DNA from: Rothia terrae
GTDB lineage: Bacteria > Actinomycetota > Actinomycetes > Actinomycetales > Micrococcaceae
NCBI RefSeq assembly: GCF_012396615.1
Contig: NZ_JAAXPV010000001.1
Coordinates: forward strand, 1-64,000
Length of the DNA: 64,000 nt
Direction of reading: 5' to 3'
Below, piece by piece: positions 46,976 to 55,303 of this stretch (positions within the stretch are counted from its first letter, which is position 1; each line of letters opens with the position of its first letter). The translations under genes were made by a program, and so were the position numbers. The notes under the pieces were generated by a model that was given only the letters and a program-made list of their open reading frames with translations, had not been told where the DNA came from and did no database searches.

Positions 46976-48571
46976 CTAGTCAGCGAGGTTGATATGGGCG
47001 GCGCGGGAAGCGCTCACTACCTTCTTGATTGATTCAATGACTTCTGCAGGGGCTGCTGAGTCAAGAGCAAGAACCGAGACAGCGCGATTGGTATTTTCGT
47101 CGCGCGATACCTGCATTCCTGCAATGTTGATGGACGCGGTACCTAGCAAGGTGCCCATCGCGGCAATCATTCCCGGGCGATCTTCGTACTCTAATACCAG
47201 CATGTAGTCGGTAATGGGAGTTTCAAAGTCGTAGCCGTTGATATTGGTGAGTTTCAGAATGTGTTTCGGCCCAGTGACGGTGCCGCCCACTACGATATTT
47301 TCGCCGGTGGAAAGTGTTCCGGTGACAATCGTTTCGTTTCTGAAGTACTCGGTTTCGGCGGTAGTCTCAAGATCAACTTTGACGCCGCGCTGTTCAGCAA
47401 TAACCGGGGCATTCACGTACGAGACCTTGTCAGAGACAACATCCGTGAAAACGCCTTTCAAGGCAGAAAGCTTCAACGAGGTAACGTCCTTGGTCGCAAT
47501 TTCGCCAGCGACCTTCACTTCAACACGGGTCAATGCTTCATCTTTGCTCAACGCAGTCAAAATGCGACCGAGCTTTTCAGCCAAAGGAACACCAGGGCGA
47601 ACGTCCTTATCGATAGATCCGCCCGCGATGTTCACCGCATCCGGCACAAGGTCGCCTTCTAGAGCCAGACGAACAGAGCGAGCAACTGCGATGCCGGCCT
47701 TCTCTTGAGCCTCAGTAGTTGATGCGCCCAGGTGAGGAGTAGCAACAACATTTTTCAATCCCACGAAGGGAACATTTTTTGCAGGTTCTTTCACAAAAAC
47801 GTCAACAGCTGCACCAGCGATTTCTCCCGCTCGTAGAGCAACATCAAGATCTGCCTCATCGATGAGACCACCACGAGCAACGTTGACTACGCACGCGGTA
47901 TTCTTCATCTTCTTGAATGATTCAGCGTTGAGCATTCCCATGGTGTCAGGCGTACGCGGCATATGGATAGTCACGAAGTCACTGCGCTCAAGAAGCTCAT
48001 CAAGATCAACGAGCTGAGCGCCAAGCTGCGAGGCACGTACCGAAGTGACAAAGGGGTCATAAGCAATGATATCGGTGCCAAATGCACGCAAACGCTCCGC
48101 TACTAAAGCACCAATTCGTCCCAGACCAATGATGCCGATTGTCTTTTCGTACAGTTCAGTGCCAGAGTATTCAGCGCGCTTCCACTCCCCTGCTTTCATA
48201 GATGCATCTGCAGCCGAGATGTTACGAGCAAGCCCGAGAATATGACCTACAGTGAGCTCCGCTGCCGAAATAATGTTGGAGGTTGGCGCATTGACGACCA
48301 TGACGCCCGCAACGGTAGCGGCTTTGATATCAACGTTATCCAAACCCACACCTGCGCGAGCAATAACCTTCAATTTGGATGCTGCGCCAATAGCCTCAGC
48401 ATCAACCTGCGTGGCAGATCGCACCAAGATAGCATCAACATCAGTGATTGCCGTCAATAGCTGATCCCGGTCAGAACCGTCGGTCTGACGAATCTCAAAA
48501 TCGGGTCCTAATGCATCCACCGTTGCCGGTGAAAGCTGTTCTGCAAGAAGTACTACTGGTTTTTCAGTCAC
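46976..48571 (-). CDS. serA: D-3-phosphoglycerate dehydrogenase
   Basis: SerA starts serine synthesis by oxidising 3-phosphoglycerate. The GTG at 48571 follows AAGGAA by 8 nt and gives 531 residues starting [15 protein letters not shown]; the frame runs 138 nt further without support. The NAD fold [16 protein letters not shown], catalytic [14 protein letters not shown] and [12 protein letters not shown] are present. An intervening (ASB) domain and a C-terminal ACT domain ([19 protein letters not shown]) make it the long, serine-regulated type found in actinobacteria. Confidence 0.95.
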
Positions 48572-48789
48572 GAGAGTGTTCCTTATAAGAATTCTTCTGT
48601 AAAAGTTCGAAACGATGCGTTGACGAGCAGGTATCTCATAAAAATCAACCTCACGAACGTCAACCACACATTCACGATATAGACCGTGGGTTTTGCATCG
48701 GTTCACCATTTACGGCCAATGCACACCCTCTGAAAATTGTGGTGGTGTCTGCACACCATTAACACGATATTACGCGCTTTATATACAGA

Positions 48790-48850: not shown

Positions 48851-49879
48851 TTAGCGAGCTACGCTACCTTCAGTGTAGTCGTCGCTTACCTTGTTCCATG
48901 AAAAGAGCTTGCGAAGTTCGCGACCGGTGGTTTCGATGGGGTGTGATTCACCTTTTGAACGCAGTTCCTTGAATTCAGGTGCACCTGCAGCCTGATCTTC
49001 CATAAAGCGCTTTGCGAAGGTACCGTCCTGAATATCTGACAGAACAGCCTTCATGTTTTCCTTGACCTCGGGTGAGATTACACGGGGTCCTGAAACGTAA
49101 TCGCCGTATTCAGCGGTGTCGGAGATTGACCAACGCTGCTTAGCAATGCCGCCTTCAATCATCAGGTCAACAATCAGCTTGAGTTCGTGCAGTACCTCAA
49201 AGTATGCGATTTCGGGCTGGTAGCCAGCTTCGGTGAGAACCTCAAAACCGTACTGAACCAGCTGTGAGGTACCGCCGCAAAGAACTGCCTGCTCGCCGAA
49301 CAGGTCGGTTTCAGTTTCTTCGGTGAAGGTAGTCTCGATAGCGCCTGCACGAGTTGCGCCCAAGCCCTTAGCGTATGCCAGTGCCAGCTCGAGAGCCTTA
49401 CCTGACTCGTTCTTTTCTACAGCAACGATGGCGGGGACGCCGCGTCCAGCCTCAAATTCACGGCGCACGGTGTGACCGGGACCCTTGGGTGCAACCATTG
49501 CCACGTCTACGCCTGCGGGAGCTTCAATGAAGCCGAAACGGATGTTGAAGCCGTGCGCGAAGAAAAGAGCATCGCCTTCGTTGAGGTGAGGAGCGATCTC
49601 GTTCTTGTAAACCTCAGCCTGAACCTGATCCGGAACCAGGATCATAATCAGATCAGCTTCCTCAACTGCATCAGCTACTGAAAGTACACGCAGGCCTTCA
49701 GCTTCTGCCTTTGCGCGTGACTTTGAGCCTTCAGCCAAGCCGATGCGAACGTCGACGCCTGAGTCGCGCAGGTTGAGCGCATGCGCGTGACCCTGTGAGC
49801 CGTAACCGATGATTGCAACGGAACGCTCTGAGATGTTCGCCAAATCAGCGTCGTCGTTATAGAAAATCTTTGCTGCCAT
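48851..49879 (-). CDS. ilvC: Ketol-acid reductoisomerase (class I)
   Basis: IlvC converts acetolactate to dihydroxyisovalerate with NADPH. It has 342 residues, the short class I form. Motifs are [35 protein letters not shown] and [17 protein letters not shown]. It is separated from ilvN by 137 AT-rich nt that probably contain its own promoter, but it lies in the order ilvB-ilvN-ilvC typical of actinobacteria. A GAGAT ribosome site is upstream. Confidence 0.97.
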
Positions 49880-50016: not shown

Positions 50017-50526
50017 TTAGTTTCGAAGGGTCTTCTCGCTCATCGAACGCGGTCCGCGTCCCAGTCCGATGGTTCCCGCACGTACAATTTCACGCACACC
50101 AAACGGCTCAAGAACATCCAAGAAAGCATTCAGCTTCTCAGCCGAACCAGTTGCCTCAATGACAACGGATTCAGTAGACACGTCAACCACCGCTGCGCGG
50201 AACAAGTCAGCTGCCTGGGTAACCTGAAGTCGAGTTGCCGCGTCCGCGCGAACCTTAATCATGATGTGATCACGCTGAACGGAGGATTCTTGAGGAAGTT
50301 CAACAATCTTTAGAACATGCACCAGCTTATTGAGCTGCTTTGTAACCTGTTCCAGCAAGATTCCATCGGCATCGACCACTACAGTAATACGCGAAATTCC
50401 TGGAACTTCAGTATGACCCACGGCCAGTGAGTCAATATTGAACATACGGCGGGCGAAAAGACCTGAGACGCGTGCGAGCACACCCGGCTTGTCTTCTACT
50501 AATACGGAGAGTGTATGACTGCTCAT
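50017..50526 (-). CDS. ilvN: Acetolactate synthase small subunit
   Basis: This 169-residue regulatory subunit binds valine and activates IlvB. It has the N-terminal ACT domain SVLVEDKPGVLARVSGLFARRMFNIDSLAVG and the C-terminal ALS_ss_C domain (IMIKVRADAATRLQVTQAADLFRA). It starts 5 nt after the ilvB stop. Confidence 0.96.
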   Translation of the reverse strand: MSSHTLSVLVEDKPGVLARVSGLFARRMFNIDSLAVGHTEVPGISRITVVVDADGILLEQVTKQLNKLVHVLKIVELPQESSVQRDHIMIKVRADAATRLQVTQAADLFRAAVVDVSTESVVIEATGSAEKLNAFLDVLEPFGVREIVRAGTIGLGRGPRSMSEKTLRN

Positions 50527-50531
50527 CGGCC

Positions 50532-52370
50532 TTAGTCCTCTCGGTCGAAATCGGGTGAAGTGTCTTTAGCGATTTGGATGAGGTCGTTGGAAATACCTGC
50601 CGGCACCATCGGCCACACCATGGAATCAGGGCTCACGGTGAAGTCAATAACAACCACGCGATCGTTGATCTCCAGAGCCTGCTTGATGACGTCATCAACG
50701 TCGTCGTCATTTTCGCAACGCAGAGCAACAGCACCATAGGCTTCTGCCAACTTCACAAAATCAGGGATGCGCGCGGTACCGTGACCGGTATTCAGATGAG
50801 TGTTGGAGTAGCGACCATCGTAGAAGAGAGTCTGCCACTGACGCACCATACCCAATGATGAGTTATTGATAATCGCAACCTTGATGGGAATGTTGTTTTG
50901 CACGCAGGTCGCCAATTCCTGGTTGGTCATCTGGAAGCAACCATCGCCATCGATTGCCCATACAACGTCTTCGGGATGCGCAGCCTTGACGCCCATCGCG
51001 GCAGGAACGGAATAACCCATGGTGCCCAGACCAGCTGAATTAATCCAGTGACGCGGTTTTTCATGCTCGATAAAGTGAGCAGACCACATCTGGTGCTGGC
51101 CAACGCCTGCTACATAGTAGGCATCCGGGCCGGTCAAAGCGCTCAGACGCTCGATCACGTGTTGCGGCTGCCCCAGCCCATCGGGAGTTGCGGTATAACC
51201 CAGCGGGAAATTCTTAATCCAGCTGTTGAGCTTGTTCCACCACGGTTCAAGATCCTGCAACCCCTCAGAAAATTCAGTGCGGAGAATCTGATTGAGCTCG
51301 GGCAAAACATATTTGAGATCGCCCACGATAGGCACATCAGCGTAACGGATCTTTGAGATTTCTGCGGGGTCAACGTCAATGTGAATAATCTTTGCATCTG
51401 GTGCAAAGGTATCGACCACGCCGGTCACCCGGTCATCAAATCGTGCGCCTAAAGTCACCAACAGATCTGATTTCTGCATAGCCGTCACTGCAGGCACAGT
51501 TCCATGCATACCCGGCATACCCAGGTTCTGCGGGTGTGAGTCGGGGAAAGTACCGCGCGCGGTGAGGGTTGTTACAACGGGGGCACCGGTAATCTCTGCC
51601 AGCTGGCGCAGTTCATCAGCCGCTCCTGCACGTACCATGCCACCGCCCACATACAACACAGGACGCTCTGCCTGAGCGATGAGTTTTGCGGCCTCGCGGA
51701 TTTGCTTTGAGTGACCGCGGGTGACGGGGTGATAACCGCGTACATCAGTGGTTGGTGGCCACGAAAAATCCATCATTCCCTGCTGTGCGTCCTTGGTGAT
51801 ATCGACAAGGACGGGGCCGGGACGGCCAGTAGAAGCAATGTGGAAGGCTGTTGCGATGCAACGCGGGATCTCTTGCGCATCACGCACCATGAAGGAATGT
51901 TTGGTAATTGGCATCGTCATACCAACAATGTCAGCCTCTTGGAAAGCATCGGTACCAATAACCTTTGATGAAACCTGACCGGTAATTGCAACCATCGGCA
52001 CAGAATCCATGTTGGCATCTGCCAAAGGAGTCAACAGATTAGTCGCACCGGGCCCAGAAGTCGCGATGCAAACGCCGACCTCTCCCGTAGAGATAGCGTA
52101 GCCCTGAGCTGCGTGCCCTGCTCCCTGCTCGTGGCGCACCAAGATGTGGTTAATAGCGGTTGAGTCCAGCAGCGGGTCATAGGTGGGCAAAATAGCTCCA
52201 CCTGGCAAACCGAAGACAGTCGTCACGCCGAGTTCTTCAAGAGAACGCACAATAGCTTGAGAGCCAGTCATCCTCTCAGTCGTTGATGTTTTCTGCTGTG
52301 CATCAAGACTACGACGGTCGCCAGTCTTATTGGCTACTGCCGCGGGGGTTATAGGGTTTCCCGTAGTCAT
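50532..52370 (-). CDS. ilvB: Acetolactate synthase large subunit
   Basis: This ThDP/FAD enzyme condenses pyruvate to acetolactate, or with 2-oxobutyrate for isoleucine. It has 612 residues. The N-terminal [14 protein letters not shown], the catalytic Glu in [14 protein letters not shown] and the ThDP motif [15 protein letters not shown] ... [12 protein letters not shown] are intact. About 35 extra N-terminal residues come before [14 protein letters not shown]. Its transcript begins about 220 nt upstream in an attenuator leader. Confidence 0.97.
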
Positions 52371-52464: not shown

Positions 52465-52495
52465 AAAAAAACCCTCCGCTAATGTAAAGCGAAGG
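52465..52495 (-). terminator. Attenuator terminator in the ilvB leader
   Basis: On the minus strand CCCTTCGCT pairs with AGCGGAGGG (one U-G pair) and is followed by seven T. GGGCGC directly after the leader-peptide stop (52536-52541) can instead pair with GCGCCC (52494-52499), which overlaps the terminator 5' arm. This gives a mutually exclusive antiterminator. Confidence 0.85.
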
Positions 52496-52540
52496 GCGCA
52501 TCGTCATGTGAACACAAAAAATAGTTCTAGGTAGCGCGCC

Positions 52541-52594
52541 CTATGGCACAATCACTAGAAGAATTTCAACGGCTTCAATACGGTGCTGTTTCAT
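52541..52594 (-). CDS. ilv leader peptide (IlvL-type)
   Basis: A 17-residue frame MKQHRIEAVEILLVIVP ends in TAG. Six of its last seven residues are Ile, Leu or Val, so ribosome stalling would report shortage of charged branched-chain tRNAs. It is followed at once by the antiterminator half and 45 nt later by an intrinsic terminator, ahead of ilvB. The ATG lies 7 nt after the -10 hexamer, so the transcript probably begins at or next to the start codon (leaderless). It is too short for automatic gene calls. The function is inferred from classical attenuation; the sequence features are direct. Confidence 0.85.
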   Translation of the reverse strand: MKQHRIEAVEILLVIVP

Positions 52595-52601
52595 GCTGTC
52601 C

Positions 52602-52631
52602 AGTATTCTCTGTGCGGTGGGACACTGTCAA
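52602..52631 (-). promoter_or_regulatory. Promoter of the ilvBNC leader
   Basis: On the minus strand TTGACA (52626-52631, perfect -35) and AATACT (52602-52607, -10) are 18 bp apart. Seven bases separate the -10 from the ATG of the leader peptide. Confidence 0.75.
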
Positions 52632-53327: not shown

Positions 53328-53335
53328 CTTGTATG

Positions 53336-53408
53336 TACACCCCGTGGGACTTGAACCCACAACCCATTGATTAAGAGTCAATTGCTCTGCCAATTGAGCT
53401 AGAGGTGC
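53336..53408 (-). tRNA. tRNA-Lys (CTT), copy 1
   Basis: The 73-nt cloverleaf has acceptor GCACCTC / GGGGTGT, anticodon loop CTCTTAA (anticodon CTT) and T-loop GGTTCAAGTCC. CCA is not encoded. It is identical to the copy at 53675-53747. Confidence 0.96.
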
Positions 53409-53668: not shown

Positions 53669-53674
53669 CTTGTA

Positions 53675-53747
53675 CACCCCGTGGGACTTGAACCCACAAC
53701 CCATTGATTAAGAGTCAATTGCTCTGCCAATTGAGCTAGAGGTGCAT
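53675..53747 (-). tRNA. tRNA-Lys (CTT), copy 2
   Basis: This 73-nt tRNA is identical to copy 1, 266 nt away. Each copy has its own terminator, and the terminators differ in sequence, so this duplication is older than that of tRNA-Glu or arose differently. Confidence 0.96.
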
Positions 53748-55192: not shown

Positions 55193-55274
55193 GCGCGAGT
55201 GGTGAAATTGGCAGACACGCAGGATTTAGGTTCCTGTGCCTTACGGCGTGAGGGTTCAAGTCCCTCCTCGCGCA
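55193..55274 (+). tRNA. tRNA-Leu (TAG)
   Basis: This 82-nt type II tRNA has acceptor GCGCGAG / CTCGCGC, anticodon stem CAGGA-TCCTG with loop TTTAGGT (anticodon TAG), a long variable arm (TGCCTTACGGCG) and T-loop GGTTCAAGTCC. Confidence 0.96.
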
Positions 55275-55303
55275 CTAAAGCCCAGATTTTTTCTGGGCTT
55301 TAG
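55275..55303 (+). terminator. Terminator after tRNA-Leu
   Basis: The stem CTAAAGCCCAG / CTGGGCTTTAG has a T-rich 7-nt loop, starting one base after the tRNA. Only a short T-containing tail follows. Confidence 0.6.

Follow-up and report, generated by a model that had tools for sequence, protein, structure and literature searches.

The ilvBNC operon of Rothia terrae is preceded by a complete leader/antiterminator/terminator arrangement, and we consider it very probable that this arrangement is a classical ribosome-mediated transcription attenuator, the leader peptide being translated from a leaderless 5' end. Three characteristic features of classical attenuators were found in the sequence and its modelled folds, namely an Ile/Leu/Val-rich leader ORF, an intrinsic terminator before ilvB and an antiterminator that is mutually exclusive with it. 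Ribosome-mediated attenuation of ilvB had been proposed in an initial annotation made from the sequence alone. As a prediction of regulation, this proposal is well supported by the anatomy of the leader, by retention of the leader frame in relatives and by co-varying arms, and the stall model presented below agrees with it.

Organization of the ilvBNC leader

The attenuator is located at 52465-52631 on the minus strand of the window (the whole stretch of 64,000 nt that was analysed). Direct reading confirmed the order of elements given in the initial annotation, i.e. TTGACA-N18-AATACT, 7 nt, ATG, a 17-residue leader, a terminator overlapped by GCGCCC, and ilvB. The -35 hexamer TTGACA (52626-52631), whose distance to the start codon is conserved in relatives, is separated by an 18-nt spacer from the -10 hexamer AATACT (52602-52607), which was also recovered by a local scan. 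Only 7 nt, inspected by eye, lie between the -10 hexamer and the ATG (52594) of ilvL (52541-52594); if transcription begins where predicted, the transcript would carry no Shine-Dalgarno sequence. This gene consists of 17 codons (MKQHRIEAVEILLVIVP) and a TAG stop codon (52543-52541). Six of its last seven codons specify Ile, Leu or Val (ILLVIV run), and further sensors are possible at I6 and V9. The stop codon is 170 nt away from ilvB, whose ATG is at 52370.

The intrinsic terminator (52465-52496) has the structure CCCTTCGCT-TTACATT-AGCGGAGGG-TTTTTTT. It was read directly and found by terminator scans, its arms being placed at 52496-52488 (CCCTTCGCT) and 52480-52472 (AGCGGAGGG) and followed by seven T to 52465. 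The local scan describes it as a stem of 10 pairs with a U run. Sequences GGGCGC (52541-52536) and GCGCCC (52499-52494) were likewise read directly. The first of them was originally described as following the stop codon; the arm is indeed present, but its first G doubles as the final base of the ilvL stop codon, and the helix comprises 7 bp (AGGGCGC:GCGCCCU). Arm swapping, predicted folds and geometry accordingly delimit a 5' arm AGGGCGC at 52536-52542, overlapping the ilvL stop codon, and a 3' arm GCGCCCT at 52493-52499, the CCCT of which is common to the terminator. Predicted folds also contain a leader ("1:2") hairpin. Its 5' side (52545-52560) is composed of TTCTAG (52560-52555) and TGTGCC (52550-52545) and overlaps Leu/Val codons, and its 3' side (52525-52540) of GGCGCG (52540-52535) and CTAGAA (52530-52525).

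In the local scan, two promoter sites were found versus 0.6 expected, TTGACA-18-AATACT being the best (10/12 matches), and one terminator, that of ilvB, versus 0.3 expected. A weaker promoter-like site, TGGAAA-16-TAAAAT (9/12 matches), is situated at 52683-52656 on the minus strand, about 50 nt upstream of the main promoter.

Genes downstream of the leader, all on the minus strand and all identified above curated cut-offs, are ilvB (50532-52370; biosynthetic acetolactate synthase large subunit, 612 aa), ilvN (50017-50526; acetolactate synthase small subunit), ilvC (48851-49879; ketol-acid reductoisomerase) and serA (46976-48709; phosphoglycerate dehydrogenase). Upstream of the attenuator, at 53335-53408 and 53672-53745 (both minus strand), are two genes for tRNA-Lys(CTT) that score equally with Rfam. 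The tRNA-Leu(TAG) gene at 55193-55275 (plus strand), about 2.6 kb from the attenuator, encodes a tRNA that might decode the leader's CTA codon.

Proposed mechanism and stall model

We propose that transcription is initiated on the A of the ilvL ATG or on a neighbouring base and that a ribosome would load at the 5'-terminal AUG, as in known cases of leaderless translation. During a shortage of charged tRNA for Ile, Leu or Val, the ribosome would stall early in the ILLVIV run or at I6/V9. It would thus leave AGGGCGC free to pair with GCGCCCU before the terminator 3' arm is made, and the antiterminator would take the CCCU base of the terminator, so that ilvB would be transcribed. With amino acids plentiful, a ribosome at the stop codon would cover AGGGCGC, the terminator would form and transcription would end at the U run. 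If the leader were untranslated, the predicted leader hairpin would hide AGGGCGC and the terminator would form as well.

The behaviour of stalled ribosomes was modelled for A-site codons 6-18 under an assumed footprint of 11 nt past the A-site codon. In nascent RNA before the terminator 3' arm, the modelled antiterminator probability is 0.95-1.0 with the A site on codons 6-14 and 0-0.01 with the A site on codons 15-18. According to the model, read-through is therefore to be expected from stalls at I11, L12, L13 or V14, and termination once the stop codon is reached, whereas a ribosome stalled at I15 or V16 would itself cover the antiterminator arm. The earlier suggestion that six Ile/Leu/Val codons act as sensors thus holds for the codons up to V14 but not, at 11 nt, for I15 and V16. 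The number of ILLVIV-run codons predicted to leave the arm free is five, four or three for footprints of 8-10, 11-13 or 14 nt, respectively.

Folding of the untranslated nascent RNA yields the leader hairpin (TTCTAG:CTAGAA and TGTGCC:GGCGCG) with inner stem probability of 0.97 and antiterminator probability of 0.0, and the full RNA without ribosomes carries the terminator. As isolated hairpins, terminator and antiterminator have energies of -15.4 and -11.5 kcal/mol, respectively, and in full-length RNA at equilibrium the terminator probability is at least 0.96 in every state modelled. Since equilibrium favours the terminator in all modelled states, we infer that antitermination must be kinetic, i.e. 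decided during transcription.

Geometry of the leaders was compared in 128 loci. A ribosome at the stop codon would cover the arm in all of them (128/128), and at least one codon of the Ile/Leu/Val stretch leaves the arm free in 114/128. Eleven of the 14 exceptions belong to Streptomyces, Kitasatospora and Peterkaempfera (L054, L060-L063, L067-L070, L079, L080), in which no codon of the stretch frees the whole arm at an 11-nt footprint. The idea that Streptomyces leaders are unable to sense was rejected as not robust: when only the longest unbroken helix is considered, 11/11 of these loci have a free codon at footprints up to 12 nt.

Leader and promoter in relatives

We examined whether similar leaders precede ilvB in related bacteria. 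IlvB is present in 59/59 genomes of the first set and in 149/149 genomes of the family set, the genome of the window being included in each. Named loci were taken from the best 80 of 583 matches, among which the window's own or very near records are possibly absent; the nearest named organism among the matches listed is Kocuria coralli (70% identity). In total, 185 ilvB upstream regions were scored, identical regions and named loci with less than 300 nt upstream (L023, L058, L064) having been left out. A region was regarded as positive if it had a matching promoter and a leader in which at least 4 out of 7 codons specify Ile, Leu or Val, the choice of leader being aided by promoter score.

With this promoter-aware choice, leader and promoter were found in 140/185 regions, the remaining 45/185 being negative. 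Positive regions comprise 33/34 from the genus (one of these, L087, counted via a wrong ORF and another, L103, weak), 53/61 from the rest of the family, 9/13 from other families of the order and 45/77 named loci. Loss of the reading frame in close relatives, which according to the initial annotation would speak against attenuation, is therefore not what is seen in 33/34 regions of the genus, L087 (wrong ORF) and L103 (weak) included. The single negative region of the genus is L113, in which the Ile/Leu/Val run is reduced. A hairpin preceding a T run, with dG of -8 or better, was detected in 135/140 positive regions including the window, at least the picks for L087 and L103 not being the expected terminator.

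Leader sequences themselves vary widely, being for example MSMQYVQVEILKLVVNP in G007, MTTRQQSQIILVVRLVNECAA in several loci and MAHHESLVLTGVRVSLIIAGRAANLA in others. In spite of this, distance between promoter and leader is nearly constant: under the promoter-aware choice, the -10 element is 6-7 nt from the start codon in 133/140 regions and the -35 element 35-37 nt in 136/140. As such a choice favours the very spacing that it reports, leaders were re-chosen without promoter information, by Ile/Leu/Val content, then ATG, then shortness; the same leader was obtained in 101/115 cases. For these promoter-blind leaders, TTGAC occurs 35-37 nt before the start codon in 78/115, compared with 0-3 occurrences at each other distance within 130 nt.

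Maintenance of antiterminator pairing between species

Comparison of leaders across relatives, in the spirit of a check recommended in the initial annotation, revealed that not only the Ile/Leu/Val-rich frame is retained but also that the antiterminator arms covary. Arms are altered yet complementary, e.g. AGGGCGC/GCGCCCT in the window, AGGGTG/CACCCT in G007, GGGTGCGC/GTGCACCC in G016 and, with one bulged A, GGGTCGCGCGG/CCGCGCGAACCC in G025. To quantify this relationship, the 5' arm region of each species was paired with its own 3' arm region and with those of other species in 5000 permutations, kinship not being modelled. Of the 140 positive loci, 131 were used; 5 without a terminator and 4 without CCC at the terminator start were dropped. 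Named loci were assigned to the rest of the family or to other families by genus names.

Native pairs are more stable than swapped ones in all three groups, and 0/5000 permutations were as good in any of them. Mean energies are -15.58 versus -12.52 kcal/mol in the genus (27 distinct, z -6.4), -12.28 versus -10.84 kcal/mol in the rest of the family (59 distinct, z -5.9) and -17.97 versus -15.88 kcal/mol in other families (38 distinct, z -5.8). When the arm region was displaced in the genus, there was no excess at -14 nt (z -0.8) and +17 nt (z -0.3) and a slight one at -7 nt (z -2.2) and +10 nt (z -2.3). In other families, displacement by -14 nt gave z -2.4 and by +17 nt z +2.3. Displacement by -7 nt gave z -8.5 in the rest of the family and z -5.6 in other families, about as strong as the true arm, because the displaced region still overlaps the arm and arms outside the genus extend further upstream.

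A different statistic, partition-function pairing of the terminator arm in individual loci, gave a null result in a shuffle test: of 8 bases, 3.22 were paired in real sequences versus 3.25 in dinucleotide-shuffled ones, and 5/34 leaders were in the top tenth. The terminator filter of this test, which was too strict, was passed by 34/140 leaders. Arm swapping is evidence that the antiterminator is maintained and that its arms co-vary between species.

Predicted position of transcription start

A -10 element positioned 7 nt from an ATG is expected to direct transcription from the ATG or from 1-2 bases before it. The ilvL transcript is accordingly predicted to begin on the A of the ATG or no more than 1-2 nt from it, and a leaderless start is likely. 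A fixed distance between promoter and start codon in relatives is the expected trace of transcription starting at a point tied to the start codon; as a prediction, the leaderless start suggested in the initial annotation is well supported by this spacing. What does not stand in the accompanying statement, that ribosome loading and attenuation are coupled unusually tightly, is the word "unusually": leaderless ilv leaders are documented in Corynebacterium glutamicum, Corynebacterium diphtheriae and Streptomyces lividans, and the spacing is usual among the leaders analysed here.

It is an evenly balanced proposition whether the leaderless start represents a selected and widely shared rule of actinobacterial ilvB attenuators. 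By this rule, the promoter would stay at a constant 35-37 nt from the start codon of the leader, although the leader changes in sequence and length and the arms in sequence, and in the R. terrae leader only codons up to V14 would sense, the last Val and probably the last Ile being unable to do so. Timing is the presumed reason for the fixed distance: with the terminator about 100 nt away, a ribosome would have to be loaded at the extreme 5' end early enough to influence it.

Alternative explanations

The attenuator may be the same and yet not leaderless, if the transcript came from an upstream promoter and ilvL were initiated internally. For instance, the promoter-like site at 52683-52656, with its 9/12 matches, would produce a 5' UTR of roughly 50-60 nt. 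However, in the 16 nt preceding the ATG (GAGAATACTGGACAGC) nothing resembling a Shine-Dalgarno sequence is seen by eye except a weak GGAC, and the occurrence of TTGAC at 35-37 nt in 78/115 promoter-blind leaders fits a start site at the ATG. We regard internal initiation as improbable.

Still less probable is a terminator that is constitutive or controlled otherwise, by a riboswitch or a protein, the Ile/Leu/Val-rich ORF being incidental. Precedents are known from elsewhere: some ilvB genes are stated to be under ppGpp riboswitches (PMC10272879), and codon changes in the ilvB leader of Streptomyces coelicolor are reported to have had no effect (PMC1262725). Against this, Rfam search of the whole window at gathering threshold returned six tRNAs and nothing else, and the four sub-threshold matches to Rfam 15 obtained in the leader up to E 10 are unrelated, none being an ilv or riboswitch family. 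Moreover, an Ile/Leu/Val-rich frame with its 3' part on the antiterminator arm is kept across genera. Rfam search of ten relatives' loci yielded one tRNA and nothing else. A short ORF and a terminator might, finally, precede ilvB by coincidence, as seven start codons on both strands of the window open ORFs of 8-34 codons that include a 7-codon stretch with 6 or more Ile/Leu/Val. Among these seven, however, ilvL alone is preceded by TTGAC at 35-37 nt and by an -A---T element at 6-7 nt, and coincidence is scarcely credible given that 33/34 distinct regions of the same genus are positive (L087 via a wrong ORF, L103 weak). Ribosome-mediated attenuation with a leaderless leader remains the reading that we prefer.

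Comparison with known systems

Neither the mechanism nor the leaderless start is new, as there are precedents in C. glutamicum, C. diphtheriae, S. lividans and, for attenuation, Mycobacterium tuberculosis. In C. glutamicum, IlvL has 15 codons, seven of them for Ile/Leu/Val (MTIIRLVVVTARRLP), the ilvBNC transcript begins one nucleotide away from the start codon of the leader, and a ribosome-binding site is absent. Expression is reported to fall when the leader start codon is replaced and to change when Val codons are replaced (Morbach et al. 2000, as cited in PMC11857589). Mutational work backs a three-hairpin model of this leader (PMC11857589). Both leaders are rich in Ile/Leu/Val, with terminator and antiterminator, and precede ilvBNC; they differ in peptide sequence and length (15 codons versus 17 in Rothia) and by serA following ilvC in Rothia.

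The ilvB leader of C. diphtheriae (15 codons, Ile/Val-rich) is leaderless by mapped start site (PMC5784534). It resembles the Rothia leader in its richness in Ile/Val and in its leaderless start, mapped there and predicted here, while the sequence is different. The 13-codon IlvL of S. lividans (MRTRILVLGKRVG) is also leaderless, and a Rho-independent terminator has been suggested to precede ilvBHC; of the seven other leader peptides in this organism, six are called leaderless as well (PMC8079986). In contrast to the Rothia leader, it contains fewer Ile/Leu/Val codons and ends in KRVG. The ilvB1NC attenuator of M. tuberculosis, with a BCAA-rich uORF, LVVI control codons and a terminator/antiterminator switch, was reporter-tested in 2026 (PMC13236596). 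Its peptide is other than that of Rothia; the design of the switch is alike, tested by reporters there and read from sequence here.

The ilvB-II motif, with 103 Corynebacterium examples, comprises a uORF of usually 15-17 aa, a P1 leader hairpin and a terminator P2 before ilvB (Narunsky et al. 2023, PMC10272879); we liken it to the Rothia leader by description only, in uORF length, leader hairpin and terminator before ilvB. Leader peptides and terminators of ilvB have further been described in Corynebacterium, Mycobacterium and Streptomyces (Seliverstov et al. 2005, PMC1262725). In polycysteine attenuators of mycobacteria, a leaderless short ORF also senses an amino acid (Canestrari et al. 2020, as cited). 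Unlike the Rothia attenuator, these sense cysteine and are described as acting on translation of downstream genes.

In the open-access literature searched, and judging by titles and abstract openings, we found no report on ilvB leaders in Rothia, Arthrobacter or micrococcal relatives. With the present analysis, the well-studied leaderless leader-peptide attenuators gain an example in a genus for which Kocuria and Arthrobacter are the nearest named relatives among the loci compared. The analysis adds a constant spacing between promoter and start codon, seen throughout the family and outside it, together with arm-swapping evidence for an apparently maintained antiterminator. It also supplies comparative data in which the spacing of the promoter and the pairing of the antiterminator persist against a background of changing sequence.

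In Streptomyces-type leaders (MRTRILVLGxRVG and the like), control codons and antiterminator arm are so close together that the arm may be in reach of a stalled ribosome. Depending on where the arm boundary is placed, this closeness might bear on the ineffective alteration of regulatory codons in the S. coelicolor ilvB leader, as noted by Seliverstov et al. 2005 (PMC1262725).

Deviating loci and codon usage

No leader-promoter pair was found in 17 named loci (L016, L017, L019, L022, L024, L029, L031, L033, L037, L043-L045, L048, L049, L055-L057), labelled Microbacterium, Okibacterium, Mycetocola, Leifsonia, Agromyces, Frondihabitans or Gryllotalpicola. All these genera we take to be Microbacteriaceae. 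Negatives among named loci amount to 32/77 in all, Microbacteriaceae included. It looks as if the attenuator had been lost or replaced in those Microbacteriaceae loci; Rfam search of seven of them (L016, L019, L022, L024, L031, L037, L055) returned nothing.

Two loci of the genus deviate in other ways. In L087 (G004), the leader frame MKLQRIITLLVVLEGADKVIIHVFLARPVVHH, located between about 270 and 170 nt upstream of an anchor at IlvB residue 34, has no stop codon at the usual place; GAG precedes GGCGCC and the frame continues into the terminator region. In L113 (G008), the leader lies between about 345 and 261 nt upstream of this anchor, and its Ile/Leu/Val run is reduced (MARRASSALTDARIPLIPAERGVRGVR). 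A -35-like element (TTGATC) is found there at the customary distance of 36 nt, as is a CCCCTCGCC hairpin. This leader is perhaps a weakened sensor.

As codon choice might tune the sensor, codon usage was compared between the 29 distinct leaders of the genus and ilvB stretches of the same loci. ATT accounts for 47/50 Ile codons in leaders versus 391/960 in ilvB, and CTT for 35/76 Leu codons versus 104/1116; TTA/TTG make up 0/76 Leu codons in leaders versus 110/1116 in ilvB stretches, the significance of these biases being overstated because genus leaders are related.
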